This document shows positions 168 to 58,745 of a DNA stretch of 58,895 nt, piece by piece (positions within the stretch are counted from its first letter, which is position 1; each line of letters opens with the position of its first letter). The notes beneath the pieces are model-generated. The model was not told the origin of the DNA and did no database searches. It saw nothing but the letters and a program-made list of their open reading frames with translations. Source of the stretch: Bacteroidaceae bacterium (lineage in GTDB: Bacteria > Bacteroidota > Bacteroidia > Bacteroidales > Bacteroidaceae). The DNA is taken from NCBI GenBank assembly GCA_017458585.1, contig JAFTAJ010000027.1, positions 1-58,895 of the forward strand, in the 5' to 3' direction. Position numbers and translations under genes: made by a program.

Positions 168-838
168 CCATTTTTTCGTCAAAAAACGGGTTTAGCCGTG
201 CAAAATACTTCATTTTTTAGAGAGAAAGATCCACTTTTCGAGAAAAAAACTCCACTTTTAGAAAAAATATCCCCACTCTCCGACATACAAAAACCCACTC
301 CCAGGAAAATTAACCCCACTCTTATTTCCGCGAGAGTGGCTTTAGATTTCACGAGAGTAGCTTTTTGTTACCACGAGAGTAGGGATAAATAAAATAAGAG
401 TGGACTTAGCAAAAACGAGAGTGCACTAAAACTTACCGCGACTTGCCAAGATTTTAGCGCACTCTTACAGAAACTTAGCGCACTCTTGCAGAAACTTAAA
501 CGGACTTCGCCTAATTTTATGCAGAGTTCGTGGAATTTTAAGCGGACTTTGTTCGAAAAAAGCCTGAGTTGCTGATATTATCTCCGCCGAGATACAACTT
601 TGTCTCGGCGAAGACACACTTGTGTTTCGGCGGAGATACATTCGTGTCTCGGCGAAGACACGAGCGGGAAGTCGCGCAAAAACTGGACGAAGTCTGCTTA
701 AAATCCGGGGAGGACACGCTAAAATTAAACGAAGGCCGCTTAAAATCTGACGAGGGGGCGCTAAGATTTCACGAGAGCGGCTTTAGTTTACATGAGAGCG
801 CGATAGAATATATCGTGCTTACGCTAAAAGTCGGTGAC
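168..838. repeat. degenerate 21-nt tandem array A (about 31 units)
   Basis: This 670-nt stretch holds no convincing gene. It is built from units almost all exactly 21 nt long. The left part repeats a CACTCTT-like core, the middle carries ACGAGAGTGG-like cores in the opposite sense, and the right part carries GACGAAGTCTGCTTAAAAT-like units. Units differ from their neighbours at many positions, but the period persists and only occasional units are 20 or 22 nt. Because 21 nt equals seven codons, short open frames across it encode heptad-like peptides (for example LKSGEDT, LKLNEGR, LKSDEGA near 700-790). These frames are not maintained over the array. The same unit family recurs at 24674 and 58291. 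Confidence 0.85.
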
Positions 839-2398: not shown

Positions 2399-3820
2399 AT
2401 GCTCATACTGGTGTTCATAATAGGATTTATGCTGCTCTGGCGCATAGGCAAGGGAGCCTCGCTCTTGGAGCGGGTGGGATTTGCCTTGCCCGTGGGCTTG
2501 GGCATCATAACCGTGTGCATGCTCCTGATGGACTGGATGGGCATCGCCCTCAGCCGCACCAATATGACGGTACTGACTATCGCCCTTCTCCTTGCAGCCA
2601 CAGCCGCAAACGTTCGATATCTCAAACTTTCGAACTTTAGAACTTTCAAACTTTCGAACTTTTCCTGGTTCAACCTCGTGTGGCTGCTGCTGCTGGTGGG
2701 CGTGATATACTTGGAGTATGTCAACATCAGCAAGTGCCTCATCTACCCCACCTACGACCGCGACTCGATGGCTGCGTTCGACACCTTCGGCTATGTCTGC
2801 TCGCAGGAGGGCACCTATCTGCGCATGAGTCTGTTTGAGCCTGACTACATCCCGTCGCTGCAACACGCGGGCAGCGCCATGGGCTATATGCCAATGCTGC
2901 AACTCTCCTACGCGTATGTATATATATTTGGTGCAGCCACCTCAAAAGCTGTGCCCGCGTTCATCTACCTCGGCTTCCTCTTCGGGCTCTACGGCCTTTG
3001 CCGCCGCAGACTCACCCACACGGCCTCAATGCTGGTGTTGATGGGCGTGATGCTGACGCCGGAAATGACATCCTTTGCCTCCCACTCCATGACCAATGTG
3101 ATGCACGCCTGCGTGGCCTCAGCGGCGATAATATACCTGTGCCTATGGCTGGAGCGGCGCGAGATCCACGACCTGCGGCTATGCGCGGTGCTGCTGGCGG
3201 TGAATGTGTGGATGCGTGCGGAGGGAATAGTGTTCATCGGCGTCGCGCTGTTATTAGTCCTAAGTTCGAGAGTTCGAAAGTTCGAAAGTCAATCGTCAAT
3301 CGTCAATGGTCAATGGGCAACCCTCTATTGTCTGTTGACTTTGCTGCCCCTTGTGCTATGGACGGTGTGCAGCCATGCGTGCGGTCTCTCCTCGGAGAGC
3401 GCGCTGATAATGCATCCTTTCTGGGACGGAGAGAAGATGCTCACCATCCTAAGCGGCATCTGGGAACTGATGAGCGGCGGCGAGTTCTACGGCTGGACCT
3501 TCCACCTCGCGCTCATCATGTTTATTGTTAATCTTATCTATAGCAAGGTCAAATCCTCCCCCTATAGGGGGATAAGAGGGGGTCTCCTCTTCTGCGCCAT
3601 CCTACTCGGATTGGCAGGCTATATCCTCGTGCTCTATCACGTTGACTACCAGTGGGACACCGTGCAGAATGTGCTGGCCTTCTCCGCCAAGCGCTTCCTG
3701 TTCTGCTTCGTGCCGATGGCGTGGTACTTCAGCGTCAGCGTATTGCCCATGCGGAAGCTGGCCGAATGGCTGGAGAGAACATTAGGAGTTAGGAGTGAGG
3801 AGTTAGGAGTGAGGAGTTAG
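2399..3820 (+). CDS. polytopic membrane protein, GT-C-like
   Basis: This is a 473-residue inner-membrane protein with about ten hydrophobic segments. After the first membrane segments comes an acidic loop (PTYDRDSMAAFD), which recalls the acidic first loop of GT-C glycosyltransferases; no family can be named securely. Four stretches derive from repeats: an 8-nt array at 2618-2669 (KLSNFRTFKLSNF), an 8-nt plus 7-nt array at 3266-3318 (RVRKFESQSSIVNGQW), a palindromic element at 3555-3590 (SSPYRGIRGGLLF) and a 7-nt array at the C-terminus (GVRSEELGVRS). The stop codon lies inside the last array, so the original C-terminus has probably been replaced or extended. The gene is otherwise intact. Confidence 0.7.
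   Translation: MLILVFIIGFMLLWRIGKGASLLERVGFALPVGLGIITVCMLLMDWMGIALSRTNMTVLTIALLLAATAANVRYLKLSNFRTFKLSNFSWFNLVWLLLLVGVIYLEYVNISKCLIYPTYDRDSMAAFDTFGYVCSQEGTYLRMSLFEPDYIPSLQHAGSAMGYMPMLQLSYAYVYIFGAATSKAVPAFIYLGFLFGLYGLCRRRLTHTASMLVLMGVMLTPEMTSFASHSMTNVMHACVASAAIIYLCLWLERREIHDLRLCAVLLAVNVWMRAEGIVFIGVALLLVLSSRVRKFESQSSIVNGQWATLYCLLTLLPLVLWTVCSHACGLSSESALIMHPFWDGEKMLTILSGIWELMSGGEFYGWTFHLALIMFIVNLIYSKVKSSPYRGIRGGLLFCAILLGLAGYILVLYHVDYQWDTVQNVLAFSAKRFLFCFVPMAWYFSVSVLPMRKLAEWLERTLGVRSEELGVRS
2618..2669 (+). repeat. 8-nt repeat array inside membrane-protein gene
   Basis: Units of the type CTTTCGAA or CTTTAGAA repeat in frame. They encode a Leu-Ser-Asn-Phe pattern between hydrophobic segments. The related complementary unit GTTCGAAA appears at 3266 and in tamB. 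Confidence 0.75.
3266..3318 (+). repeat. 8-nt and 7-nt repeat arrays inside membrane-protein gene
   Basis: GTTCGAAA-type units run directly into GTCAATC/GTCAATG 7-nt units. Both are read in frame as a hydrophilic insert between two membrane segments. Confidence 0.75.
3555..3590 (+). repeat. palindromic C/G-run mini-element, in frame
   Basis: The sequence contains CCCCCTATAGGGGG, then GATAAGAGGGGGTCTCCTCTTC. It is nearly identical to the copy at 8667, which lies in the signal peptide of tamL. Here it encodes SSPYRGIRGGLLF between two transmembrane segments. Confidence 0.85.
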
Positions 3821-3845
3821 GAGTAAGGAGTGAGGAGTAAGGAGA
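3782..3845 (+). repeat. 7-nt tandem array (TTAGGAG/TGAGGAG) over the gene end
   Basis: About eight 7-nt units alternate TTAGGAG, TGAGGAG and TAAGGAG. The first units encode the last residues of the membrane protein and supply its TAG stop. The rest is intergenic. Confidence 0.85.
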
Positions 3846-3920: not shown

Positions 3921-6900
3921 ATGAATATTAAGCGACTGCCAGTATGTGTGTTGAAATGGCTCGGGAGGATAGTGCTCTCGGTGGTCATTCTTATTATGTT
4001 GCTGGTGGTGGCTGTATATCTGCCCCCCGTGCAGCAATGGCTCAAAGGTCTGGCCGAGGACTACCTCAGCGAGGAGACGGGCATGGAGGTGAAGATTGAA
4101 AGGGTGAGACTCTCTCCGTGGCTCGATCTGGAGGTGGACAATATGAGTGCCGTGGACAAAGGCGACACCGTGGTGGCTGCCCGCCAGCTGCTGCTCGATG
4201 TGAAGGTGCTGCCTCTGCTAAAGGGACAGGTGGACCTCAACGGCTTTGAGCTGCGCGAGGCCAAGCTGAACACCAAAGACTTTATCAGCGACACGCATGT
4301 GGAGGGACAGTTCCGTCTGTTGAAGATGGACATCCCCGCCGTATGCGACCTCAAGCAGAAGCATGTTGATGTTAACCGCGTGAGGCTGAAAGGAGCCGAT
4401 ATGCGTATAGTGCTGAGCGACACCGCCGCCGTGGACACCACGCCGTCGGAGCCCGTGGAGTGGCGGCTGGCGCTGGGCGAACTGAAGGTGGAGGACACCA
4501 AGTTTGACGTAAGTTTGAAGTCAAGAGTTCCAGAGTTCGAAAGTTCGAAAGTTCGAAAGTTCGAGAGTTCAAGGGGCGAGGAAGCGCTCCAAGAATACAT
4601 GCGCCTGCGGGGCGACATCAACAATCTCAGCCTCAAGCAGGCGGACATCAACCTCAAGGACGAAGAATATAAGGCTGGCGAAATAATCCTCAATGCCAGG
4701 AATGTAGGCTATGACGTGCCCTATGAGAAACCCGTGAAAGGACTCGACACCAGCCACCTCTTTATGCCGGAGCTCAATCTCAATGCCCGCGATTTCTCCT
4801 TCGGCAAAGATGGCATCGATGTGAATCTCGAGCGTCTGAACCTCAAGGAGAAGAGCGGCCTGGAGCTCACCAACATGAGTGGCACCCTGCACTACGACTC
4901 CACCCTCGTCAGCCTCAGCAACGGCCGCATAGAGACACCCAACAGCAAGCTGGATGCCGACGTGCAGATAGGCGACGACGACCGCATGACCGTCAAGGTG
5001 AACGGCGATGTGGGCAAGAAGGATATCATGCTGCTGGGCGGCGACGCGCTGGGCGACTTTGGCAAGCAGCTGCCCGACAAGCCCGTCAATATCAACATGC
5101 GTGCCGAGGGCACGATGGACGACCTTGACATCGACTACTGCCACCTCAACATACCGGGCAATATGGAGATGCGCCTCAGCGGACGCCTCAACCAGATTGG
5201 CTCCGACCGTCGTCGCAACGGACGCCTCCACTACGACATCTCCCTCAAGGATGCCAGCTTCCTGCGCCGCATGATGCCCAGAGACCTGCAGAGCACCCTG
5301 CGCATACCCAATGGCACCCGCATAGGCGGCGATGTGGACTTCCGCGGCAGCCAGTTTAACCTTAACAAAAACACCATCTACAGCGGCAAGGGCAGCCTCA
5401 GCTTCACCGGCAAGTTTGATGCCAACAGCATGGCCTACAACGGACGCCTCACCGCACGCCAGTTCCCCTTCCAGAACTTCCTGCCGGGCTCAGGACTCAA
5501 CACCATGAGCGGCGAATTCAATATCAGCGGAAAGGGCACCGACTTCCTCTCCTCCGGCACCACACTTAATATCGATGCCAATCTCGGCAACTTCTCCTTC
5601 GCAGGCCTGCCGCTTGACAATATACGCCTCAAAGCGCAGCTCAACGGCAACAATGCAGAGGGCACCATCCATGCCGACAACTCATGGCTCAAGGCCAACC
5701 TCGACTTCACCGCCAGCCAGCTCGACGGCAGACTCAGCGGCTCGCTCGACGGCAACATTGCCCGTCTCAGCCTCAAGCCCTTCGGTATCGGCAAGGACGA
5801 TATGTACTATATGGCCGACGTCCACCTCAAAGGCTTCTATGAAGAGAAGAGCCAAAAGATGGCCCTCGGCGGCACCATCGACCACCTCAATGCCGTTGAC
5901 TCGCGCCTCGGCTATCCTGGCGGAGCCATCAACTTTGGCCTCGGCACCAGCCCCGACTCCACACACATCTATCTCAGCTCCGGCGACATGACACTTAGGG
6001 CACGCGCCGAGGAGCCATTCGACAAACTCATCAGCGACCTCGCTAATGTGGCCGACGAGTTGTCCACCAAGATCAGCGCCGCACAGCTTGACCACAATGC
6101 CCTGCGTCAGATGCTACCCGACATGAGACTACACCTTAACGCTGGCAGCAACAATCCGCTCCAGCAAATACTGCTCATGAGCGGATATAGCTTCGACAGC
6201 CTTCGCGCAGACATCACCACCAACATAGCCACCGGCATCAACGCCGATGTGAAGATGGCAAATGTACGCACCGGCGCAATACTCCTCGAAGACTCACGCC
6301 TCACCATTGTGCAAGACAGCGATGCCTTGCGCTTCAATGCCTGCATCGAAAACACCAGCAAGAAAAACCCCAACCGCTTCAAGGCAGCCCTCGATGGCAG
6401 CCTGCTCAGCGACGGATTACAAGTGATGGCCAACTTCAAGGACGACAAGGGCCGCGAGGGCATCAACATCGGCACCCGTGTCAAGCTCGACGGCATGGGC
6501 GGCATGGCCTTCACCCTCATACCCGAGGTGTCCACACTCGCCTACCGCCAATTCAAGGTCAATGCCGACAACTACCTCCGCCTCGACTCCGCAGGCTACT
6601 TCTACGCCAATATCGACCTGCTGGCCGACGACCGCACCAATATCAAGCTCTTCTCCATTGCACAAGACGACAGCCTCAGCCGTAAGCCTAACCAAGATAT
6701 CACCCTCTCGTTGGCCAACATCAACCTACACGACATCAGTAGCGTCGTTCCCTTCATGCCCAGCATGAGCGGATGGCTCGACGGCGATATACATATCATC
6801 AAGACCCCCCAAAGCTTCACCGCCGTAGGACAGCTGCAGAGCCGCAAGCTCGAGTATGACGGCCTCTATATCGGCGAGCTGGGCACCGAGCTCTTCTATA

Positions 6901-8621: not shown

Positions 8622-11181
8622 ATATCAAATATCACATCTTACATCTTACATCTTCCCTCTTACATCTTCCCCCTTTAGGGGGATAAGAGGGGGTCTCCTC
8701 TTCTTCCTCCTCCTCACCGCATGCTCCACCACCGACCGCTTGCCTGAGGGAGAGACCCTCTACACCGGCATCGGCACCGTGAGCTACGTTGACCAGGGCG
8801 GCAAGGACCAGGACTCGCGCCACCAGCTTCAGAAAGGCGGAGTGATAGTAGCCATTGCCGACGCCGCACAGCAGGTCAAGAAAGCCTTTGAGGGCAAGAG
8901 CTATCGCACCACCAAAGAGAGTAGCATCGACAGCGCCCTGCTCGCACTCACCCCCGACGAGAGAGGAGCCGAGAAACTCGCCTTCGAGCCCGTGGAAGAA
9001 GAAATAGAGGCGGTGCTCGCCTACCCGCCCAACAACTCCTTCTTCGGCAGCTCACGAGTGCGCACACCGTTGCCCATCGGCCTGTGGGCATACAACGCAT
9101 GGGGTGACAAGCAAAAAGGCCTCGGCCACTTCCTCTTCAAGGCCGTGGGCAGCCAGCCCGTGCTTATCTCCTCCGTCAGCCCCGACACCCGTGCCAAGGT
9201 AGGCGAGAACGTGCTCCACAACTACGGATTCTTCCGTGGACACATCGACTACGACATTGCCCACCACAAGCACAACGACCGCAAGGCCAAAGTCAACTAC
9301 TATGTCCATTCAGGGCGAGTATGGCGCATCGACTCCATAGAATACCTCGGATTTCCCGACTACGCCGACAGCCTCATACAAGCCACGCGCACAGACAGCC
9401 ACCTGCAGAAAGGCGCACCCTTCACCGCCGTCACGCTGCAAAACGAGCAGACACGCATCGCCAACATGCTCCGCAACCGTGGCTACTACTACTATAAGCC
9501 CACCTTCGCCACCTACAAGGCTGACACCGTGGCCAAGCCCTACAAGGTGCAGCTGCGCATGCAATGCGCCCCCAACCTGCCATCAGTCGTGGCCAGGCAG
9601 TGGTACATAGGCAACATAAACATCACCGTGCTGCGCAACACCTTCGACACCCCCGACCAGACAATCACCCTGCCGCGAGGCACCTACACCTACTCCGGCC
9701 ATAAGCCACCCATCAAGCCCGATGCCCTCATGCGCAATGTGCTCCATCGACGCGGCAGTCTCTATCGGGCCTTCGGACAGGAGAAGACACAAGAGTTGCT
9801 TAACGAACTCGCCCTCTTCTCCAACCTCACCCTGCGCTATACCCCTCGCGACACCACCGCCTTCCGCCAGCGCAGCAATGCCGATAACGAAGCGTCAATG
9901 GTCAATACTAACGACACTCTCGACCTACACATAACTGCCGTGATGGAGCCGCGCTACAACGCAGACTTCGAAATCAATGTCACCGAACGCAACAGCGACC
10001 GCATAGGCCCGGGCATCTCACTCGGACTGAAAAAGAAGAACGCTTTTCGCGGAGCAGAAATGCTCAGCTTCAAACTCTTCGGCTCCTACGAATGGAGCAC
10101 CAATCTCAAAGGCGACCGACAGCATGGTCTGTTCAACTCCTATGAGGTAGGCACCAAACTCTCCCTCGACCTGCCGCGCATGTTGCTGCCAGGCATGCAT
10201 CCGCAGCGGCTTCGCTTCCCTGCCACCACAAGCATCAGCATCTACGGCGACCTGCTTAACCGAGCCACCTTCTTCCGTATGCTCTCCTTCGGCACAAGCC
10301 TCACCTACTCATGGCGACGCAACCGCACCTCACGCCACGAGTTCTCGCCATCACTCACCTACAGCAAGCTCAACCGCACCACCGCACAGTTTGACTCCAT
10401 CCTCTATGAGAGCCCCGCCCTGGCTGTGTCGATGCAAGATCGCCTCGTGCCCGCAATGCAATATACCTATGCCTACACCTCGCCGCGCAACACACGCCAC
10501 CCCGTCACATGGCAGCTGTCAATCAAGCAGGCAGGATTCTTCACCTCCGCGGTATATGCTATCGGCGGCAACAAGTTCAACGAGAAAGACAAGAAACTCT
10601 TCAACAACCCCTTCGCCCAGTTCATCAAAGTCACCAGCGAGCTCCACAACAATTGGCGCCTCAACACTAACACACGCCTCGTCACCCGCGTGATGGGCGG
10701 CATAGCATGGGCATACGGCAACTCCAACATAGTGCCCTACAGCGACCAGTTCTACTCAGGCGGAGCCAACAGCATACGAGCCTTCCCCATCCGCCGCGTA
10801 GGACCGGGACGCTTCGTCAGCAGCGGCGACAAATACGCCTATCTCGACCAGACAGGCGATATCAAGCTTGAGGGCAACATAGAGCTACGCTTCCCGTTGT
10901 TTGGCACCATCTACGGAGCCACTTTTGTTGACGCAGGCAACGTATGGCTGCTTCGCAAAGACGAATACCGCGAGGGCGGCACCCTACGCGCAGGCAGCTT
11001 CCTTAAGGATCTCGCCCTTGGCACCGGCGTAGGACTCCGCTACGACATGGACTTCCTTGTGCTGCGCCTCGATCTCGGATTTGCCCTCCACGACCCCGCA
11101 TCCACACGGCCGGGATACTTTGCCACCGACAAATTCTCCGACCGCTTCGCCCTGCACTTCGCCATAGGATATCCCTTCTAG
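8611..11181 (+). CDS. tamL: TamL: BamA/TamA-family outer-membrane lipoprotein
   Basis: The 856-residue protein is the Omp85 partner of TamB. The signal peptide ends in a lipobox (LLTAC, Cys38), which marks the lipidated TamA variant of Bacteroidota. POTRA-like domains follow, then a surface-antigen beta-barrel ending in an aromatic residue (AIGYPF), as outer-membrane proteins do. The start at 8611 overlaps the tamB stop. The signal peptide is odd: residues about 7-19 come from a 7-nt CTTACAT array and residues 19-31 from a palindromic element (SSPFRGIRGGLLF). The hydrophobic core and lipobox remain intact. The role is assembly or insertion of outer-membrane components at the cell surface. Confidence 0.9.
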   Translation: MKNKYQISHLTSYIFPLTSSPFRGIRGGLLFFLLLTACSTTDRLPEGETLYTGIGTVSYVDQGGKDQDSRHQLQKGGVIVAIADAAQQVKKAFEGKSYRTTKESSIDSALLALTPDERGAEKLAFEPVEEEIEAVLAYPPNNSFFGSSRVRTPLPIGLWAYNAWGDKQKGLGHFLFKAVGSQPVLISSVSPDTRAKVGENVLHNYGFFRGHIDYDIAHHKHNDRKAKVNYYVHSGRVWRIDSIEYLGFPDYADSLIQATRTDSHLQKGAPFTAVTLQNEQTRIANMLRNRGYYYYKPTFATYKADTVAKPYKVQLRMQCAPNLPSVVARQWYIGNINITVLRNTFDTPDQTITLPRGTYTYSGHKPPIKPDALMRNVLHRRGSLYRAFGQEKTQELLNELALFSNLTLRYTPRDTTAFRQRSNADNEASMVNTNDTLDLHITAVMEPRYNADFEINVTERNSDRIGPGISLGLKKKNAFRGAEMLSFKLFGSYEWSTNLKGDRQHGLFNSYEVGTKLSLDLPRMLLPGMHPQRLRFPATTSISIYGDLLNRATFFRMLSFGTSLTYSWRRNRTSRHEFSPSLTYSKLNRTTAQFDSILYESPALAVSMQDRLVPAMQYTYAYTSPRNTRHPVTWQLSIKQAGFFTSAVYAIGGNKFNEKDKKLFNNPFAQFIKVTSELHNNWRLNTNTRLVTRVMGGIAWAYGNSNIVPYSDQFYSGGANSIRAFPIRRVGPGRFVSSGDKYAYLDQTGDIKLEGNIELRFPLFGTIYGATFVDAGNVWLLRKDEYREGGTLRAGSFLKDLALGTGVGLRYDMDFLVLRLDLGFALHDPASTRPGYFATDKFSDRFALHFAIGYPF
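8634..8668 (+). repeat. 7-nt CTTACAT array in the tamL signal region
   Basis: CTTACAT and CTTCCCT units repeat four to five times and encode the polar N-terminal part of the tamL signal peptide. The same unit type appears intergenically at 52141 and, with changes, at 58685. Confidence 0.75.
8667..8700 (+). repeat. palindromic C/G-run mini-element in the tamL signal peptide
   Basis: CCCCCTTTAGGGGG is followed by GATAAGAGGGGGTCTCCTCTTC. It differs from the copy at 3555 at only a few bases and is in the same reading frame there. It adds SSPFRGIRGG directly before the hydrophobic core of the lipoprotein signal. Confidence 0.85.
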
Positions 11182-14169: not shown

Positions 14170-14203
14170 AGTCACAAAGTCACAAAGTCGCAAAGTCGCA
14201 AAG
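14170..14203 (+). repeat. 8-nt array, left inverted flank of four-helix-bundle gene
   Basis: Units AGTCACAA and AGTCGCAA repeat four times. Positions 14186-14203 are the exact reverse complement of 14626-14643 on the other side of the four-helix-bundle gene. Confidence 0.85.
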
Positions 14204-17970: not shown

Positions 17971-17972
17971 AA

Positions 17973-18050
17973 CTCTCGACTCTCGACTATGCGACTTTGC
18001 GACTCTATGACTCTGCGACTATGCAACTCTGCGACTTTGCGACTAACAAA
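17973..18050. repeat. 8-nt GCGACTTT-type array between GT2 and RluA genes
   Basis: About nine units (CTCTCGA, CTATGCGA, CTTTGCGA, CTCTGCGA, CTATGCAA) fill the gap. The right edge is identical over 20 nt to the right flank of the four-helix-bundle cassette, but no gene is present here. Confidence 0.85.
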
Positions 18051-24630: not shown

Positions 24631-24673
24631 CTTTGGAACTCTGGTATTTTAGAACTCTGAAACTTTAGAACAA

Positions 24674-25074
24674 GCGCGACTTCACCAATTTTTTACGTGA
24701 CCTCGCCAATTTTTTCTGCGACCTCATCCATTATTTGCGCGAGTTCGCCATATTTTTGTGCGACCTTATTCTATTTTATCCCAACTTCCCGCAATTATCT
24801 CCGCCGAGATAATAAATTGTTTCGGCCGAAATAATACATTGTTTCCGCCGAAATGATACATTGTTTCGGCGGAAATACTTCGACGAAGTCTGCTTAAAAT
24901 CACGCGAAGTCAGTTTTTTTTGGCGGGAGAACAGCTTAAGTTGTGACGAAGTCCGCTTAAATATTCGGGAGGTCGCACTAAGGTTATGGGAGGTATGCGT
25001 TAGTTTCAGCGAAGCCTGCGTTTGTTGTAACAAGGGGTGCTTTCATCTTAACGGAGGCGCACGACAAGAGTTTT
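24674..25074. repeat. degenerate 21-nt tandem array B (about 19 units)
   Basis: About 400 nt without a gene. The first units are GCGACCTCGCCAATTTTTT-like at 21 nt spacing. Four units of 22 nt follow with the semi-palindromic pattern CCGAAATNATACATTGTTTCGG. The right half returns to 21-nt units of the type GACGAAGTCCGCTTAAAT, as in array A. An open frame across the right half encodes heptads of the VxLxxRE type but is not a credible protein. Confidence 0.85.
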
Positions 25075-25131: not shown

Positions 25132-25139
25132 TACCTTTG
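25132..25139 (+). promoter_or_regulatory. -7 box TACCTTTG upstream of the WYL gene
   Basis: This is the distal of two boxes before the WYL regulator. A 16-codon open frame starts at the ATG at 25148, but it shows no family features. Confidence 0.45.
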
Positions 25140-25231: not shown

Positions 25232-26131
25232 ATGGCAACACAGACACTCAGAAAGTATGTATGGCTCATCAACACCATACACAAACATCCGGGAATCTCC
25301 TTTAAGGATATCAACGACAAGTGGCAGTACAGCGATCTCAGCGAGGGCAACGAGCTACCTTTGCGCACCTTTCACAAGTGGCGCAACGCTATTTACAAAG
25401 TCCTTGGGCTGAGGATCGCTTGGCGTGATGGCGATGGCTATTTTATTGCCAATGACGACGACATTAAAGAAGGCACCATTCGTAAGTGGCTGATGGACAA
25501 CATCTCCGTCAGCAACATACTTATGTCCAACCTGGCGCTGAAAGACCGCATCCTACTCGAAGATGTTCCCTCCAGCAAGGACCATTTGAACACTATCCTT
25601 GAGGCGATGCAGACCAACACCGTGCTCAGTTTCACCTACCAGGGCTTTGGCCGCAAAAATGCCCACACCTTCGATTTGCATCCCTACTGCGTAAAGCTTT
25701 TCAAGCAGCGGTGGTATATGCTTGGCTTCAGCCCATCCGATAACAGGCTCCGCATCTATGCCCTTGACCGCGTCGATAAGATTGAGCTGAAGAACGGCCA
25801 GACATTCTGTATGCCGCGCAATTTCAATGCAGAAGATTACTTCATGAATTTTTATGGCATTGTCGCAAACTCCGACAAGGAGCCGGAGCAGATCCTCATC
25901 AAGGTGTCCGCCGAGCAAGCAAAATATATCAAGACGCTGCGGCTGCATTGGTCCCAAGATATTATGGAGGACAACGACGAGTACACCATATTTAAATATA
26001 AACTGTGTCCCGAATACGACTTCATGCAGGAGCTGTTGTCGCATGGTGCTGACCTGGAGGTACTTTCTCCCGAATGGCTTCGCGAAGAGATTGCCGAGAA
26101 GGTAACAGGCATGTATAATCTATATTACTAA
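25232..26131 (+). CDS. WYL-domain transcriptional regulator
   Basis: A 299-residue protein with an N-terminal winged-helix-like region (residues about 1-75), a helical linker and a WYL domain at about 118-205 (TNTVLSFTYQGFG; VKLFKQRWYMLGFS; RIYALDRV). A WCX-like C-terminal extension follows. WYL proteins sense ligands or nucleic acid and often regulate defence or DNA-damage genes. Two -7 boxes and an inverted repeat precede the gene. It is followed after 3 nt by an exonuclease gene and then by rmuC and a UDG-like gene, which suggests a DNA-processing group. Confidence 0.87.
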   Translation: MATQTLRKYVWLINTIHKHPGISFKDINDKWQYSDLSEGNELPLRTFHKWRNAIYKVLGLRIAWRDGDGYFIANDDDIKEGTIRKWLMDNISVSNILMSNLALKDRILLEDVPSSKDHLNTILEAMQTNTVLSFTYQGFGRKNAHTFDLHPYCVKLFKQRWYMLGFSPSDNRLRIYALDRVDKIELKNGQTFCMPRNFNAEDYFMNFYGIVANSDKEPEQILIKVSAEQAKYIKTLRLHWSQDIMEDNDEYTIFKYKLCPEYDFMQELLSHGADLEVLSPEWLREEIAEKVTGMYNLYY

Positions 26132-29535: not shown

Positions 29536-31443
29536 CTACTGGCGCACGTACTTCTCGAGGTTGCGGGCTACCACCTCGTAGCCGCGGGCATTGGGGTGGA
29601 GGCCGTCGGAGAAGAGAGACTCTATCAGTTCGCCGCGCTCATCGACGAGGCCGGGGGAAAGGTCGATGTATTGACAATTGACCATTGACAATTGACCATT
29701 GTCACACACCCCCTCCCCGGGCTCCCACCCCTCAGTCGCACACCCCATCCCCCTTACGGGGACTTCCCCTAACTTAGGGGCAGAATATTTTTGTCTTGAC
29801 TCTTGACTATTTATCTTTTCTTGCAGGAGGGCGTTGATATTGTTGACGCGCTGGAGCTGGCCGCGGCGGGGCATGATGCCACACTGGTAGATGCGGGCCT
29901 TGGGCTGGTGCTGACGCACGGCCTGGATGAGGAGCAGCATGCCCTCGACTATCTCTTCGTCGGTGTTGGTGGAGAGGTTGTTGGTGCCAAGCAGGAGGAA
30001 TACTTTCTCGGCATTGTAGCCGTCCAGCTCGCCGTGCATGATGCGCCAGAGGCCGTTCTCGATGCGGTCGAAGCCGAAGCCCATATTGCGGGCGATGCGG
30101 CCCTTGAAGAGGCGGTCCCAGCTGGCGCGGTAGTCCTTAGCGTCAGATCCGGAGCGGTCATCGGTCCAGTAGTGGGTGATGGAGTTGCCTATCATCACTA
30201 TCTGGGGCGCCTGCAGACAGTTCTGCTGGAGTATATGCTCGTGGCGGTCGTGCCAGATGTAGGGGTCACGCTGCTGGGTGCGAGGGAAAAAAAGACCCAC
30301 CCCCTTCCCCTCCCATGAAGGGAGGGGGGAAAGGAATATTTGGTGGAGCTTGCGGATATAGGCGTTGGCGTACTCGCGCATACCTACGTCGTTGGGGTGG
30401 ATGCCCTCCACCATCGACTCCTGGGAGAAGGCGAGTTCCTCGTGGTCGAGGTAGTAGAGACCTGTGACGCCGCGCTGGCAGAGGGTGTCGTAGGCTCGGC
30501 GCTGCTCACGGTTGGAGTCGGCGTAGCGGTCGATGGCCCGCTGCGAACTGGAGGCGTTGGCGTAGTGGTGCTCCACGAGGAGGATGGGGGTGTCGGGGTG
30601 CACGGAGCGCAGCTGCTCCACGCCGCTCACCATGCGGTCGAAGATGAGGGGCACCTTTTCCTCGGTGAGGTTGGGCAGGCAGTCGAGTATATAGAGCTTG
30701 GCATCTATCTCGTTGATATAGTTGAACACCTCGGTCTCCAGCATGCCGTTGCCAGAGAAGGCTAGGTTGATGAGGGGATAGCCCGTCTCGCGCTTTACGA
30801 TATTGGTCCATGCCATACCGGTGCGCGAGGCGCAGGCTCCCTGGCCGATGGAGGTGCCATAGACTACGATGGGGGCCTCCTGGGTGACGGGCATCAGGCG
30901 CAGGTCGTAGTCGTCGTCAACGCCTATCTCCATCCACTTCACCTCGTTGTAGAGGGGCAGGAAGAGCTCATAGTCGTAGCCGCGGCTCTCGCCGGTGAAG
31001 TAGGTGAGGTGGCGAAACTCATAGTTGATGGTGTCCTTGAATGAGAGGTCGAAGCGCGAGGCGCACCATCGCAGCTCGCCGTTGGCATCGGTGGCGTAGA
31101 GGTCGAGACCCGACACGCCGGTGGTGGGCATGTGGAACATGTTGAGGCCACCGGTGACCTGGTAGCGCACACGTATGCTGGGGGCGTTGGAGCGAAACTT
31201 GATGGAGAGGCCTGCCGACTGCTTGGAGAGGCTCCATACGGCTGAGCGCACTTCGTGCTGAGCACGGTCGGGCAGACGGTGGTAGTTGGTCTTGAGCTCC
31301 TCGCCCCACCAACGGCCGCAGACATAGCTGGTGCCAGGAGGGGAGTCAAGAGGATTGAGCCAGCGCGTTTGGCCATTGACCATGGACCATTGACCATGGA
31401 CCATTAACGCCAGGAGGAATAGTCTGAGAATATTTTTTTTCAT
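29536..31443 (-). CDS. two-domain SGNH/GDSL esterase
   Basis: This 635-residue secreted protein carries two esterase modules. An N-terminal GxDLY domain (SGLDLYA) leads into the first SGNH domain (VYGTSIGQG). The second module has VMIGNSITHYW, LLGTNN and DGLHPNARG. Repeats shape the gene. The signal peptide end (MVHGQWSMVNGQ) comes from 7-nt CATTGAC/CATGGAC units. The linker between modules carries a palindromic element (30287-30333; LPSWEGKGVGLFF). The second domain is interrupted by a longer element and a 7-nt array at 29676-29783. Despite this the catalytic Ser and His motifs are intact. It probably deacetylates glycans with its neighbours. Confidence 0.83.
   Translation of the reverse strand: MKKNILRLFLLALMVHGQWSMVNGQTRWLNPLDSPPGTSYVCGRWWGEELKTNYHRLPDRAQHEVRSAVWSLSKQSAGLSIKFRSNAPSIRVRYQVTGGLNMFHMPTTGVSGLDLYATDANGELRWCASRFDLSFKDTINYEFRHLTYFTGESRGYDYELFLPLYNEVKWMEIGVDDDYDLRLMPVTQEAPIVVYGTSIGQGACASRTGMAWTNIVKRETGYPLINLAFSGNGMLETEVFNYINEIDAKLYILDCLPNLTEEKVPLIFDRMVSGVEQLRSVHPDTPILLVEHHYANASSSQRAIDRYADSNREQRRAYDTLCQRGVTGLYYLDHEELAFSQESMVEGIHPNDVGMREYANAYIRKLHQIFLSPLPSWEGKGVGLFFPRTQQRDPYIWHDRHEHILQQNCLQAPQIVMIGNSITHYWTDDRSGSDAKDYRASWDRLFKGRIARNMGFGFDRIENGLWRIMHGELDGYNAEKVFLLLGTNNLSTNTDEEIVEGMLLLIQAVRQHQPKARIYQCGIMPRRGQLQRVNNINALLQEKINSQESRQKYSAPKLGEVPVRGMGCATEGWEPGEGVCDNGQLSMVNCQYIDLSPGLVDERGELIESLFSDGLHPNARGYEVVARNLEKYVRQ
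29676..29702 (-). repeat. 7-nt TTGACCA/TTGACAA array in the SGNH gene
   Basis: Four units encode NGQLSMVNCQ in frame, next to the palindromic element at 29703. Confidence 0.8.
29703..29783 (-). repeat. palindromic C/G-run mini-element in the second SGNH domain
   Basis: The minus strand reads CCCCTAAGTTAGGGG, then AAGTCCCCGTAAGGGGGATGGGGTGTG and a second G-rich end. It is longer than other copies, possibly a composite. It is translated between the last long helix and the DGLHPN motif. Confidence 0.8.
30287..30333 (-). repeat. palindromic C/G-run mini-element in the inter-domain linker
   Basis: CCCTCCCATGAAGGGAGGG forms the core and a CCACCCCC run follows. It lies in frame between the two SGNH modules. 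Confidence 0.75.
31371..31416 (-). repeat. 7-nt CATTGAC/CATGGAC array in a signal peptide
   Basis: Four to five alternating units encode the end of the signal peptide of the double SGNH esterase (VHGQWSMVNGQ). Confidence 0.8.
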
Positions 31444-37567: not shown

Positions 37568-37573
37568 CAAAAA

Positions 37574-37608
37574 AGTTAGGAGTTAGAAGTTAGAAGTTAG
37601 GAGTTTTT
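37574..37608. repeat. 7-nt GTTAGGA/GTTAGAA array between divergent promoters
   Basis: Five units lie between the cca promoter and the promoter of the lipoprotein at 37627, so copy-number changes would move both upstream regions. Confidence 0.8.
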
Positions 37609-38259: not shown

Positions 38260-39588
38260 ATGTCTTTTCTACAGCGCATACAAGCCACCATCCGTCAACA
38301 CGACCTGCTGCCGCAGCCCAGTGGCGCGGAGACTGTGCTGGTGGCTCTGAGCGGCGGTGCTGACTCTGTGGCTCTGCTACGCAGTATGCTGCAGTTGGGC
38401 TATAGGTGCGACGCTGCTCATTGCAACTTCCACCTGCGAGGCGAGGAGTCGGACAGGGATGAGGAGTTTGTCACCAAACTGTGTCACAAACTTGGCATCA
38501 CGCTCCACAAGCGCGACTTCGACACCACCGCCTACGCTGCCGAACGAAAGGAAAGCATAGAGATGGCAGCGCGTGACCTGCGCTACGGATTCTTCCGCCA
38601 ACTGCTCAACGACAAGCATTACACTGCCGTAGCCGTAGCCCACCATCGCGATGACAACGCTGAGACGATACTGCTCAACATTATGCGCGGCACAGGACTG
38701 CAAGGACTCACGGGCATGCCCTACAGCAACAACGGCATTGTGCGCCCGCTGCTCGATGTGAGCCGTCAGGACATCACCGACTATCTGCGCGACTTGGGGC
38801 AGGACTATGTGACCGACAGCACCAACCTCACACCCGACGTAAAGCGCAACGCCGTGAGACTGAAGCTGATGCCGCTGCTCCGCCAACTAAACCCCGCCAT
38901 CACAGACACCCTGCTGCAGAACGCTGCCAATGCCCGCGAAGCACAGCAATATATTGCATCACGCGCGTATAGTATTAATAAGGTAGAGCAGAGTGACGGC
39001 TCCGTGGCCATACGCAAACGCGATATCGACGGTCAGGCGCTGCTCTTCGAGATTCTCCATCCGCTCGGATTCACTCCCGCACAGATAAACGATGTGTGGC
39101 GGAACCTTGACGACCAGCCGGGGGCCATCTTCCGCAGCGCAACGCACGAACTGCTGCGCGACAGGGAAAATATTATAGTTCGAGAGTTCCAGAGTTCCAG
39201 AGTTCCAGAGTCTTGCGTCTCTTTTAATGCTGGAGATGATGCGGCACTCTTAGGGCAGGGCATCCGCACACGCATCGTGGCTGCCGACAGTATTGACGAG
39301 ATAAGCAAAGACCCGTGCGTTGCCTGTCTCGACGCCGACAAGGTGGGCGCCTGTCTCTGCTTGCGACCTGTGAAGCAAGGCGACCGCTTCGTACCATTCG
39401 GCAGTAAAGGCAGCAAACTGGTGAGCCGCTACATGATAGACCATAAGTTCACTGCCTTCCAGAAAGAGCGCCAACTGGTGCTCACCAACGGCACAGATAT
39501 AGTGTGGCTCGTGGGACAGCGCCCCGACGATCGCTACAGAGTTGTTAAAGAAACAAAAAACTTTCTCCTAATTGAGACTTTTGCTTAG
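38260..39588 (+). CDS. tilS: tRNA(Ile)-lysidine synthase
   Basis: This 442-residue enzyme converts C34 of the CAT-anticodon tRNA-Ile to lysidine. The PP-loop SGGADS is at 31-36. The HHRDDNAETILL and GLTGM motifs confirm TilS rather than TtcA. The ATG at 38260 is used; an in-frame TTG at 38239 gives a less typical N-terminus. An 8-nt GTTCCAGA array (39179-39210) inserts REFQSSRVPES in the linker before the C-terminal TilS domain. The reading frame is intact. Confidence 0.92.
   Translation: MSFLQRIQATIRQHDLLPQPSGAETVLVALSGGADSVALLRSMLQLGYRCDAAHCNFHLRGEESDRDEEFVTKLCHKLGITLHKRDFDTTAYAAERKESIEMAARDLRYGFFRQLLNDKHYTAVAVAHHRDDNAETILLNIMRGTGLQGLTGMPYSNNGIVRPLLDVSRQDITDYLRDLGQDYVTDSTNLTPDVKRNAVRLKLMPLLRQLNPAITDTLLQNAANAREAQQYIASRAYSINKVEQSDGSVAIRKRDIDGQALLFEILHPLGFTPAQINDVWRNLDDQPGAIFRSATHELLRDRENIIVREFQSSRVPESCVSFNAGDDAALLGQGIRTRIVAADSIDEISKDPCVACLDADKVGACLCLRPVKQGDRFVPFGSKGSKLVSRYMIDHKFTAFQKERQLVLTNGTDIVWLVGQRPDDRYRVVKETKNFLLIETFA
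39179..39210 (+). repeat. 8-nt AGTTCCAG array inside tilS
   Basis: Four units (AGTTCGAG, then three AGTTCCAG) are read in frame in the inter-domain linker. Confidence 0.8.
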
Positions 39589-46019: not shown

Positions 46020-46062
46020 GCTCCTAACTCCTAACTCCTCACTCCTCACTCCTAACTCCTTT
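46020..46062. repeat. 7-nt CTCCTAA/CTCCTCA array over the phoH end
   Basis: Six to seven units. On the minus strand they encode the last residues of PhoH (GVRSEE) and its stop, then continue between the genes, exactly as at 3782 for the membrane protein. Confidence 0.8.
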
Positions 46063-48752: not shown

Positions 48753-48770
48753 AGTCGAGCGCGAAGCGCA

Positions 48771-48945
48771 ATAACTTCTGAGGAGCCGCAGGCTCCGATA
48801 ACTTCTGAGCGAAGCGATAACTTCTGAGGAGCCGCAGGCTCCGATAACTTCTGAGCGAAGCGATAACTTCTGAGGAGCCGCAGGCTCCGATAACTTCTGA
48901 GCGAAGCGATAACTTCTGAGGAGCCGCAGGCTCCGATAACTTCTT
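48771..48945 (+). repeat. 46-nt tandem repeat, four copies, next to a start codon
   Basis: Each 46-nt unit contains ATAACTTCTGAGGAGCCGCA then GGCTCC, and a shorter ATAACTTCTGAGCGAAGC. The hairpin GGAGCC-GCA-GGCTCC recurs at exact 46-nt spacing (48782, 48828, 48874, 48920). The array stops 4 nt before the transporter ATG at 48950, so it occupies the whole ribosome-binding region. Confidence 0.92.
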
Positions 48946-55728: not shown

Positions 55729-56583
55729 CTACTTCTTTCTTGCCTTCTTCAATATTTCATTTGTTTCCTCAAGTGTATCCATATAGGCCAAGTACGAGTC
55801 AAGGTCTGTATAATTTGGCTGAGCCATATCCATCTGTTTGGCTTCACCTGCTGTTCGGTAGTTAATCCAATAGTCATCAAAGATAATCTCAGCATCATCA
55901 CCAAACCTTTCCACAAAAGGACCTTGTCCATTTACCATTTTATCTAAGTCGGCAATACCACCTATGTTCTTGGTGTTACCGCTGCCAGGATGGTCTATGG
56001 CAATTTTATATTTAGGCTGTAGAAAGAAGATAAAACTCTTGATGACAGACTTAATCTGAACAAGTTCATCAAGACCATATACTTGAAATTCATCACCAGT
56101 TTCATCTGCCTGACGATATACTATACCTAATACAAGATGGCTCTTGTACTCATGATACGGGTGCTGGATATTTTTTGTGGAATTCCTGTCACGGAAATAG
56201 CCAGAGAAGGCTCCGAGTGTCATTCCTTTAATCTTCTTTTCCTCAACACCCTTCTTCTTAGAAACCTCATAATAGGTGGTTTTGAAATCAACGGCAAACA
56301 AACTTCCATCCTGTTTATCTTTGAATGTTAGGTCCGGATAATAATTCTGCGCATCGGGAAGTTCAAGTTCCAATTCATTCCTTTCAGCAAAAAGTTTAAG
56401 TTTGGGAATCAGTATTATCTCGATAATCTTCGAAACGACCTTGGTGTCATGTGAAATGGTGTAGATATTCTTATCTACATCTATGAAACCTTTTACTTTC
56501 CATTCCTCGCCATCTGTTTCCAGATGCTTTTTGTAAGAACTAATCTCGTCAAGAAGTAGTTCGTAGAATTTGTTACTTTCCAT
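55729..56583 (-). CDS. EcoRV-like type II restriction endonuclease
   Basis: A 284-residue nuclease homologous to EcoRV (245 residues). The catalytic PD-(D)xK site is Pro83-Asp84 and Asp99-Phe-Lys101 (YYPDLTF; AVDFKTTY), equivalent to Asp74, Asp90 and Lys92. The recognition loop GSGNTKN (200-206) preserves the GSGNT residues that read GAT in EcoRV, so blunt cleavage of GATATC is predicted. It has a longer insert near 105-120 and C-terminal tail. GATATC occurs repeatedly in this window (for example near 2614 and 6694), consistent with protection by methylation rather than site avoidance. Confidence 0.94.
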   Translation of the reverse strand: MESNKFYELLLDEISSYKKHLETDGEEWKVKGFIDVDKNIYTISHDTKVVSKIIEIILIPKLKLFAERNELELELPDAQNYYPDLTFKDKQDGSLFAVDFKTTYYEVSKKKGVEEKKIKGMTLGAFSGYFRDRNSTKNIQHPYHEYKSHLVLGIVYRQADETGDEFQVYGLDELVQIKSVIKSFIFFLQPKYKIAIDHPGSGNTKNIGGIADLDKMVNGQGPFVERFGDDAEIIFDDYWINYRTAGEAKQMDMAQPNYTDLDSYLAYMDTLEETNEILKKARKK

Positions 56584-56605
56584 ATTGGCTAAAGAATATT
56601 AGATA

Positions 56606-57259
56606 TTAATACATAACATATTCTCTTTCTTTTCTTATCTCATCCAGCACTTTCCCGTTATACGAGAAATACTTGGCACCTTGATAGGCACCGGAGGCGT
56701 TACGTTGTTCTTCTGGCATGAAAGTACCCACAAACGGAGAGAGTTTATAGATGCGACCTTCATACTCGATGCTATCATCAGAGGCCACTTTTACAACAAG
56801 TCCCGTTGGGTCAAAAGTAACCTGCTCGCCAATCTTGATGCCACACATAGAGAACTTGAATCGTGGACGTTTCACTTCACGCTTCGCCGTTTCCTTGTGT
56901 TCACATTCTACTATTGGTTTGTTGTCCTCATAGAGCGTCACCTCCGCATCGTCAATCGTCATTGCAATATCACGGAAAATGTCGAGTGCCATCTGTGGAG
57001 CTACATTGAAAAACTCGCGGTTCTGACGGATGCGCAGGTCGGTGAGTCGGTCAATGGTCTTATGGACCAATTTCTCCACCTCGTTATACTTCACCGTCTT
57101 CATCGTGGCAAAAATCTCGAAAGGCAAGGGGACAGCGGTATTATCCAGCTCCTTGCTCCGCACATCCACGGGACGGCTACTTTTGCCGATCTTCACCCAA
57201 TCCTCGCGAAAGCTGGGATTGGTCAGAATGTAAACATATCCAGGTTCTTTATTTGCCAT
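56606..57259 (-). CDS. T5orf172/GIY-YIG protein with DUF4357-like C-domain
   Basis: A 217-residue protein that opens with GYVYILTNPS and VKIGKS, the T5orf172 (MUG113) form of the GIY-YIG nuclease fold. After a helical part, residues about 130-185 resemble DUF4357 (FKFSMCGIKIGEQVTF). It is the first gene of the island, 22 nt before the EcoRV-like endonuclease. It could be a controller, an accessory nuclease or an independent defence gene. The catalytic Arg/Glu pattern is only partly visible. Confidence 0.8.
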   Translation of the reverse strand: MANKEPGYVYILTNPSFREDWVKIGKSSRPVDVRSKELDNTAVPLPFEIFATMKTVKYNEVEKLVHKTIDRLTDLRIRQNREFFNVAPQMALDIFRDIAMTIDDAEVTLYEDNKPIVECEHKETAKREVKRPRFKFSMCGIKIGEQVTFDPTGLVVKVASDDSIEYEGRIYKLSPFVGTFMPEEQRNASGAYQGAKYFSYNGKVLDEIRKEREYVMY

Positions 57260-57306
57260 ATGTATTTATCTTTTAATCTTCTTACTATCTTCTATGTCTC
57301 TTCCTG

Positions 57307-57588
57307 CTACTGTCTTGCCATCGTCTTCCTTCCTTGACCTTTGGCCGAGCCTGCTTTTGCTCGGCAATAATCAAACGAATTTCTTGAGCCCCTTCTTATC
57401 TCTTTTTTCTCACATCCAAGCCATGGTGTAAGCTTATCCAGAGTGTTCAGACCTATGATTTGAACGCAAAAGGCAAGTATTTGATATTTTGACCTCGCGT
57501 TACGTTCAAGTACCAATTTGGCATACTGAAACTCTACTTCGTTTTTTTCTCCGCTCCGCAAAGTTACGATTTTTTTCTGACCCCGCAA
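57307..57588 (-). other. doubtful open frame / long leader of the defence operon
   Basis: An open frame of 93 codons with a basic C-terminus. Its ATG lies upstream of the -7 box at 57559-57566, so that promoter would not transcribe the start. I see no family. The stretch is better viewed as an untranslated leader of about 290 nt before the T5orf172 gene, possibly with a short peptide. Confidence 0.3.
57559..57566 (-). promoter_or_regulatory. -7 box TAACTTTG, probable defence-operon promoter
   Basis: On the minus strand this is the only clear -7 box upstream of the T5orf172 gene. The implied leader is about 290 nt. Confidence 0.5.
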
Positions 57589-57776
57589 GAAAAGCGTCCC
57601 GTTTTATAGAAATCATTAGTAGGCCGCATAAAAAAATTAGCTCAATAGAACAAAAAACTTCCCCTTAATATCACCCTCAAAAAACGCAAATCTCTCTCCT
57701 TACTCCCTAGTGACCTTAAAAATCTTTATTATCCCACCAGCATAACTCCCTCACTTTCAGAACTTCTTTTCGGAGG

Positions 57777-57910
57777 TGGTGGGGATGGTGGGGTTGATTT
57801 CTATAGGCGGCAAAAAAAAATACCTAAATCCGAAAATGTTTTCTCTTTTCTCAAGCCGATTTACGCTTTTTTTTTAATATTCCTAGGAAACAACCCCACC
57901 ATCCCCACCA
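57777..57910. repeat. 20-nt perfect inverted repeat with G/C-run arms
   Basis: TGGTGGGGATGGTGGGGTTG (57777-57796) is the exact complement of 57891-57910. The 94 nt between are A/T-rich. The right arm continues with further CCCACC units. No gene is seen from 57600 to 58290 apart from this structure and short hairpins. Confidence 0.85.
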
Positions 57911-58290
57911 TCCCCACCCCTTTATCCGCCCTCAAGACACAGGGACAAATCGGGGATGGGCTCTTTCTTCCCTTCTCCTTTCTCCATGAGGAAGGGAGTT
58001 TTTTATGAGATTTTTATGATGAGGTTAGACGCCCAAGAATCAGTAATTCAGCAGATTCGGCGTGTCGAAATGAGTTTTTTTCGATATATGTCATAAAATC
58101 TTTTCTTTAAAAAAATAATATAGAAAGTTTTAGAGAAAAGTTGGGTAAAAACTCAAAATGGCTGACATAAGTAGCTGTCCCTCCGACAGTTACACCTCAT
58201 GAGACAACTACAAAAAACTCAAAAAAAACTATTTGTCAGAAGGGTAAGGCTTGGGAATCAGCACGAGCCTCCCCGAGCGCAGAATATGCA

Positions 58291-58500
58291 CTCTCGTGAA
58301 AATTATCCCTACTCTTATAAAATCTAACCCCACTCTTACGAAAACTAAACCCGCTCTCATGAAATCTAACCCCGTTCTCGTGGAAATAAGAGTAGCTTAA
58401 GTTTATCGGAGGTCTGACTTCTGTGAAACGAGCTGGGGGTTACGTGACATGAGCTCTGACATATGTGTCATGAGCCCCGACTTATCGCCGTTTCTCTCAT
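58291..58500. repeat. 21-nt tandem array C (ten exact-length units)
   Basis: Ten consecutive units of exactly 21 nt. The first four read CTCTyayGAAAwCTAACCCC-like. The fifth changes orientation (GGAAATAAGAGTAG) and the last five are GTGACATGAGCTCTGACAT-like. This is the same family as arrays A and B. Confidence 0.88.
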
Positions 58501-58520
58501 AAAAAAATATTTTTCTTTTT

Positions 58521-58612
58521 TTGCCTCCATGCCTCCATAACCCATTGGAAAGTCAATGCTCATCGGCATTCGCAGTATGGAGGCAAGTATGGAAGCAATG
58601 GAAGCAAGCGCC
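58521..58612. repeat. inverted pair of GCCTCCAT-type short repeats
   Basis: TGCCTCCATGCCTCCATA on the left faces TATGGAGGCAAGTATGGAAGCAATGGAAGCA on the right. The layout of two units, a spacer and three units parallels the inverted repeat at 57777, but with a different unit. The surrounding 58560-58868 frame is low-complexity and not counted as a gene. Confidence 0.65.
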
Positions 58613-58684
58613 CAAAATAGACAGATTGCAGCAAAAAACTCGCAAAAAATCCGTCAGGATGTGACGGGGCTTCGACAGGTGGAG

Positions 58685-58745
58685 TGTTAAAGAAGTAAGA
58701 TGTAAGAAGTAGGATGTAAAATGTAAAATGTAAAATGTAAAAATG
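58685..58745. repeat. 7-nt GTAAGAT/GTAAAAT array
   Basis: About eight units of the types AGTAAGATG, TGTAAGA and TGTAAAA at 7-nt spacing. The same unit recurs at 58820-58848. Confidence 0.8.

Follow-up and report, generated by a model that had tools for sequence, protein, structure and literature searches.

What keeps a 21-nt period running for several hundred nucleotides through DNA whose successive units share little sequence? The question arises at positions 168-838 of the window, by which we mean the whole 58,895-nt stretch of Bacteroidaceae DNA analysed here, where the first-pass annotation had described one drifting array of 31 units.

Mirror-symmetric elements in the window

The predicted periodicity was confirmed by autocorrelation. 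Self-match at lag 21 reached 0.463 in 168-838, a z of 12.4 when set against 300 mononucleotide shuffles, and the same shuffles revealed harmonics at lags 42 (z = 10.9) and 63 (z = 5.5), whereas control stretches at 1000-1670 and 57260-57930 gave lag-21 z values of 0.2 and 1.5. Lag-21 z was also high at 24670-25060 (11.0) and at 58280-58480 (10.5), where relatives of the same family had been proposed at 24674 and 58291, and both proved to be further elements of the same type.

Units were located with a 21-nt profile (trained consensus ACGAGATCGGGGTTAGTTTTC, later ACGAGGTCGGCGTTAGTTTTC), which is biased in that its training loci had been picked for their similarity to the window. It placed 23 directional units in 241-812, to which four 22-nt core boxes in 578-661 are added; thus the 21-nt period stands and the count of 31 does not. 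Positions 168-240 are periodic, yet the profile scored no units there. Nor is the region one array: it holds two adjacent mirror-symmetric elements, each with minus-strand units on the left and plus-strand units on the right, and the switches of orientation noted at first sight are real and mark these two elements. The idea of a heptad-coding relic is not supported, as 168-838 contains no ORF of at least 100 aa.

By the unit profile, element 1 comprises a left arm of four minus-strand units with their heads toward the centre (241-325), a 4-nt dyad centre (326-329) of what we call the 25 class, and a right arm of five plus-strand units (330-435). Element 2 has seven units in each arm (427-573, minus, the first overlapping the end of element 1; 666-812, plus), separated by a 92-nt core (574-665) with four palindrome-like boxes at a 22-nt step (578-595, 600-617, 622-639 and 644-661). 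Element 3 is built likewise, with a left arm of five minus-strand units (24686-24790) plus a weak sixth at 24665, a 92-nt core (24791-24882) with four boxes at a 22-nt step (24795-24878), and a right arm of eight plus-strand units (24883-25050); its left arm also gave three overlapping plus-strand profile hits (24676, 24697 and 24739). Element 4 has four minus-strand units (58298-58381), a 4-nt centre of the 25 class (58382-58385) and four plus-strand units (58386-58469), three of which are of a diverged type (e.g. GAGCTCTGACATATGTG).

The window contains a second kind of periodicity, namely simple tandem arrays of 7/14 nt (3782-3844, 8634-8675, 29670-29701, 31373-31405, 37573-37605, 46021-46060 and 58695-58742) and of 8/16 nt (2625-2662, 4526-4570, 14170-14203, 17972-18044 and 39177-39211), as well as a 46-nt tandem array of four copies at 98% (48761-48944). 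Beside element 4 lies a dispersed module (about 58500-58649) with a clean right end at about 58649, possibly a separate MITE; it recurs in loci L090, L094, L100, L113 and L129, partly apart from arrays, and in L085 its end is slightly earlier.

Spacing, direction and centre gap

Architecture was measured in 120 fetched loci, from the own genome and five related ones, and in three pieces of the window. Neighbouring units were spaced by exactly 21 nt in 642 of 704 cases, by 22 nt in 53 and by another distance in nine (17-25 allowed), after removal of 12 spacings in three runs of 7-nt simple repeats (654/716 before removal). Such repeats, of the AGGAGTT type, occupy 1405-1516 and 2624-2791 of locus L135 within a called ORF and also give a lag-21 signal. 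Neighbours within an arm agreed on average at 13.3 of 21 positions, and distant units at 12.3. The view that the period is kept more strictly than the sequence is borne out by the contrast between spacing and neighbour agreement, and some orthologous sites keep the period without alignable sequence.

Direction and symmetry were equally regular. Among 74 pairs of neighbouring arms, 63 ran minus then plus, with the heads facing the centre, eight showed the reverse order, two were minus-minus and one was plus-plus. The centre gap, counted from the last minus-unit start to the first plus-unit start, was 25 in 23 of the 63 head-in elements and 113 in 16; 19 of the remaining 24 equalled 25 plus a multiple of 21-22, the exceptions being 4, 4, 32, 55 and 66. 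Left and right arm lengths were uncorrelated (r = 0.09). Because the centre gap also moves mostly in steps of 21-22 bp, the reading of the period as two helical turns, already put forward in the first-pass annotation, is a natural one. A 10.5-bp harmonic in G+C was absent from both classes, with values of -0.02 and -0.04 at lags 10 and 11 and 0.91 at lag 21 in the 113 class, and of -0.24, -0.16 and 0.65, respectively, in the 25 class.

Core boxes and strand pairing

Elements of the 113 class carry a 92-nt core. The eleven printed cores of the TTTCSGCSGAAA type, read by eye, each contain four boxes in a frame of 13 + 3 x 22 + 13. A set of 25 cores of this box family, in which at least three boxes were required and steps of 21-23 allowed, yielded 95 boxes; 68 of 70 steps were 22, and 16 cores had four boxes. 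The own genome also contains cores of the TTCCGCGCGGAA and TTTTCATGCCCATGAAAA types at a similar step (by eye), and the coexistence of several box families within one genome is awkward for a single sequence-specific reader.

Boxes of one core share half-sites. Box-by-box covariation appeared strong at first, in a set that included false cores inside genes and in a comparison between cores, but vanished on shuffling within cores (positions ±4 to ±9, p = 0.22 to 1.0). Pairs at the box centre were less complementary than in these within-core shuffles (p = 0.006 and 0.005). Lack of covariation and non-complementary centres fit dimer sites, not strand pairing. Mirror pairing of the arms was likewise not significant, either in 59 elements (p = 0.09; 11.04 versus 10.90 when shuffled) or in an earlier set of 21 elements divided by class (p = 0.08 and 0.056), and a long-hairpin model was rejected on this ground; the arm unit showed no dyad in 934 distinct 37-nt stretches. 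Taken together, unpaired arms, boxes without covariation and arm units without a dyad make it unlikely that pairing, in RNA or as a cruciform, is selected. Spacing, direction and symmetry are what is kept; strand pairing is not.

Gene context

Of 67 clusters, 47 could be classified, as lying between tandem (28), convergent (14) or divergent (5) genes; the other 20 were at contig or stretch edges (18) or inside called ORFs (two, the L135 7-nt repeats). Gene calls for this purpose came from a simple codon score, and most of the neighbour genes scanned are ordinary cellular ones. Where a gene start faces an array, the motif TAnnTTTG, which we take to be the Bacteroidetes promoter motif, was present between the two on the strand of the gene in 33 of 38 intervals. 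On the other strand these intervals contained it in 14 of 38 cases, and the arrays themselves in 10 of 38. One instance of this promoter-type motif, TACCTTTG, lies on the plus strand at 25132-25139, between element 3 and a WYL-domain gene at 25232. Elsewhere in the window, the minus strand carries an EcoRV-type restriction endonuclease gene and, next to it, a T5orf172-domain gene (55729-57259).

The ends of neighbouring genes bear on whether the arrays act as RNA, being transcribed as bidirectional terminators or long hairpins. Some arrays begin at or near a stop codon, some first units contain GCGC with six T after it on one side and a run of A on the opposite side, strong folds were predicted in the three stretches folded (z = -2.8, -6.4 and -5.1), and a simple, crude detector found no separate terminator-like site before the array at 39 of 56 gene ends facing one. 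The same detector did find such a site at the other 17, however, and in the related genome G005 the core flanks have the opposite polarity, with a T-run before and an A-run after (by eye). Adding the pairing results above, we consider a role at the RNA level unlikely. At gathering score, Rfam models detected only two tRNAs in the window and gave no match to the arrays.

Copy number and range

The sequence model R1 gave 151 matches in the own genome at E ≤ 1, which were grouped by hand into about 69 clusters in 2.4 Mb, of which three reach no better E than 0.09-0.16. A search of 60 relatives at E ≤ 0.01 gave matches in G013 (95), G009 (79), G007 (44), G016 (22), G011 (12) and G012 (12), with one or two in each of G001, G008 and G053 and none in the other 51. 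At E ≤ 1e-5, seven of 301 genomes of the family matched, comprising the own genome, five of the same genus and, outside it, G202, around whose single match no periodic array was detected. The presence of this unit family in seven genomes of one genus is well supported. We found no match to 168-838 in plasmids and phages, and no exact match to one two-unit pattern in viral contigs.

Arrays of the same step with other sequences were found with a sequence-blind detector, which gave zero hits in five mononucleotide shuffles of the window. In small same-genus samples it revealed 21-22-nt arrays of other palindromes in G005 (GGAAYRTAYRTTCC) and G004 (TRAACRTAYGTTYA) and, at a lower threshold, a TCCGSCCGGAAA array at a contig end of G010 and a 42-nt repeat of two 21s in G006; a TTGAAAGGCCTTTCAA array came from a stretch of G001 fetched for another reason. 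All of these palindromes were read by eye. The samples of G014, G017 and G018 yielded no array to this detector and that of G008 only a weak pyrimidine-rich stretch, which was not counted; neither was a 21-nt hit in G023, from another genus, which looks like coding sequence. Palindrome arrays of 22 nt also occur in two of 80 named lpxC loci (L208 and L212, from other Prevotella-type genomes). A core of G007, present at several loci of that genome, gave mostly arm matches in G016. That several related species have the same step in different letters suggests that spacing matters, and not exact sequence. Absence from related genomes, which the first-pass annotation had named as counting against it, is thus not what we found: the unit family occurs in other same-genus genomes, and further ones contain same-step arrays of a different sequence.

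These distributions could also come from a selfish dispersed repeat. Under such an explanation, a non-autonomous MITE- or REPIN-like family spreads, diverges and is homogenised by gene conversion, a mobilising enzyme recognises its architecture, with no gain to the host. The roughly 69 clusters that a single family has in the genome, and its near-restriction to one genus, agree with this, as does the G005 family, of which G005 has 50 matches, G004 one and the eight other genomes searched, the own included, none. One array lies between lpxC-fabZ and lpxA, an interval of 710 nt in the own genome and of 43 and 21 nt in the two named relatives for which it was measured; named lpxC loci come no closer than 77-79% protein identity, in metagenome genomes of Bacteroidales. 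Internal blocks recur among paralogous copies at unrelated sites, contigs tend to break at arrays (an array is found no more than 1 kb from 17 of 94 contig ends), and intergenic sites upstream of promoters are where harmless insertions survive. Since the genomes are mostly drafts and arrays lie near contig ends, some chimeras are possible.

Other observations fit a selfish family less well. No target duplication, precise empty site or common outer ends were seen in the few pairs aligned, all of them diverged comparisons; arm lengths vary without correlation between left and right; and sites at which the arrays differ in sequence but not in step would require re-invasion of the spot or replacement. 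RAYT mobilisation, in turn, was rejected, as the Y1 (RAYT-type) transposase, PF01797, does not correlate with arrays: among the seven carriers it was found in G000 and not in G007, G009, G011, G012, G013 or G016, an absence that is not certain because the carrier drafts are 63-86% complete. Overall, we regard a selfish origin without benefit to the host, the strongest competitor of the reading proposed below, as a tangible possibility, albeit a somewhat improbable one.

Orthologous sites and unit turnover

Twenty-eight comparisons had at least 400 flanking bases aligned. In seven of these (L108/L167, L117/L201, L137/L172, L124/L197, L127/L161, L132/L188 and L132/L189), both species have arrays and the flanks are 82-90% identical, but only 0-67 bases of array align; L124/L197 is possibly an assembly chimera, and the L127 array was seen by profile and by eye and not by the blind detector. 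Loci of relatives were picked by R1 matches, so presence in both species partly reflects selection of the sample, whereas failure to align does not. At least 150 nt of array aligned in ten other orthologous or near-orthologous pairs (L095/L153, L096/L164, L096/L197, L097/L170, L107/L180, L118/L158, L118/L203, L122/L184, L135/L175 and winA/L204), and the remaining 11 rows were left out as paralogous genes, one-sided or unclear cases and one empty site. Replacement of the array at orthologous sites is, therefore, not the rule. In the window, 488-1535 aligns to G013 over 1048 bases on both sides, including the left arm of element 2 from 488 onward. L122 and L184 align in their outer arms and have cores of different box families, and array L187 of G007 lacks a counterpart in the window at about 38.0 kb.

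Aligned arrays often differ by whole units. One array differs by exactly 21 nt between G009 and G013, and 18 of 40 array gaps of at least 3 nt are 19-22 nt long, compared with two of 179 in the flanks; one-base gaps are also common in arrays (241/321). The earlier argument that tandem duplication is insufficient was thus incomplete, because ordinary gain and loss of units does occur, together with exchange from array to array. A neutral minisatellite, in which tandem 21-mers made by slippage are now drifting, would explain these one-unit gaps and the greater likeness of adjacent than of distant units. Nevertheless, slippage predicts neither head-in mirror arms, a centre gap quantised by 21-22, palindromic cores nor the same step across unrelated families. 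Moreover, substitutions avoid the informative positions of the unit: when units were aligned across ten locus pairs, these positions had changed in 66 of 680 cases and the others in 127 of 748 (Fisher p = 7e-5; Spearman -0.69). We consider neutral drift very unlikely.

Divergence of arrays and flanks disagrees in both directions, and gene conversion could therefore contribute to the conservation of those positions: array units are 1.2% and flanks 14.3% diverged between L158 (G009) and L203 (G013), whereas another locus pair has 12.4% in the array and 3.7% in the flanks. The low array divergence of L158/L203 points to recent exchange between species or to a shared conversion source.

A proposed assembly site

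Our preferred reading, offered tentatively and at slightly less than even chances, is that the elements are putative DNA-level sites for protein assembly, phased at two helical turns, and spread and exchanged by recombination. Subunits placed at steps of 21-22 bp would lie on one face of the helix and could stack along the DNA or wrap it, with the core boxes as putative dimer sites and the arm units as putative directional sites. The geometry would be fixed by selection and the letters would be exchangeable, given the gain and loss of units, the recombination between arrays and replacement by copies of whichever family is locally abundant. A likely role would be in chromosome structure, as a local wrap, a loop anchor or a supercoil barrier between transcription units, rather than in regulation of single genes.

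An assembly site is supported by the strict 21-nt spacing, the head-in arms, the quantised gap, the 22-bp step of the boxes and the lack of a pairing signal, by the slower change of informative unit positions, and by related species that have the same step with other palindromes and some orthologous sites where the array sequence was replaced and the architecture kept. Against it stand the arrays that do align at ten pairs, the possible contribution of gene conversion to conserved positions, and the samples with no array (G014, G017 and G018) or no convincing one (G008). Even spacing of arrays along contigs, tested on the R1 family list, is also weak (p = 0.011, becoming 0.026 after fixing arrays at contig ends).

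A broader claim, which we consider rather doubtful, is that these arrays represent a class of element defined by geometry, a mirror-symmetric two-turn stack between transcription units whose letters are replaced from species to species while the step, the head-in arms and the quantised core are kept, in logic like the fast-evolving centromeric satellites of fixed repeat length. Protein assembly and selfish spread may also both be true together. If the geometry is selected, this would be a bacterial repeat with conserved length and unconserved sequence, which sequence searches would miss elsewhere; if the family is selfish, it is one of unusually strict architecture. We know of few architectural sites in Bacteroidales, and the arrays offer a handle on chromosome organisation in this order.

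Comparison with known systems

The initial statement that no named element has these properties needs qualifying, for REP/BIME elements and the BrickBuilt MITE are related kinds; a literature search for such arrays returned only BrickBuilt and REP-type work as relevant, which does not prove absence from print. BrickBuilt belongs to a Bacteroidales host, Porphyromonas gingivalis. According to its description, it consists of short, tandem, imperfect units, is always intergenic with long predicted stem-loops, and has 19 copies in strain ATCC 33277 and no BLASTn match outside the species; its 23-nt units, which show 0-11% mismatches inside one element, form a direct run that has a leader, a tail and small terminal inverted repeats (PMC4596501). 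Here, by contrast, strongly diverged units follow at a 21-nt step in two opposed, head-in arms, between which palindromic boxes of 22 nt may lie; a 23-nt unit of low divergence in one direct run was not found. As regards leader and tail, aligned pairs have no common outer ends, and the clean-ended module beside element 4 is separate.

REP/BIME elements and REPINs resemble our arrays in their short palindromic units, intergenic position, many copies, inverted arrangement and species-specific sequences. Each REP unit, however, is a hairpin palindrome, whereas the arm units lack a dyad and the palindrome-like boxes lack box-by-box covariation. To our knowledge, no REP/BIME element has a 21-22-bp step with a quantised centre. 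BIME-2 elements are described as strong gyrase sites in intergenic repeats (PMC6379681).

Palindromic boxes at two-turn spacing also recall Lrp/AsnC sites. According to a review on Lrp, DNA is bent or wrapped where dimer sites follow each other on one face at a distance of two or three turns, with about 100 bp wrapped around three dimers in one Lrp-type case (PMC2995911). The boxes differ from such sites in belonging to many-copy repeats whose sequences vary per species, against a recognition helix that is conserved in the Lrp of the genus. An Lrp/AsnC protein occurs genus-wide, once in most genomes (G010 has a second, different paralog), and its recognition helix is, by eye, near-identical in 12 same-genus genomes with different boxes. 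Lrp does not, therefore, plainly read the species-specific boxes, and it was rejected as their reader. Four of these 12 genomes have a periodic array near the lrp gene, at a distance of up to about 1 kb in G000, G007 and G004 and of up to 2 kb in G001, a proximity that we take as chance because the sides differ. The array coordinates at these four places, not listed in the order of the genomes, are L363 4395-4716, L354 1888-2334, L355 1635-1816 and L357 2152-2372. A 10/20-nt simple repeat of the AAAGTAGATA type is found just upstream of the own-genome lrp (L354 3072-3328).

Finally, iteron arrays and the ends of Tn7 consist of directional repeats of about 20-22 bp at two-turn spacing, and Tn7 ends carry several 22-bp sites in inverted orientation. 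The elements described here differ from both in having dozens of chromosomal copies, a variable number of units and, among the neighbouring genes scanned, mostly ordinary cellular ones.
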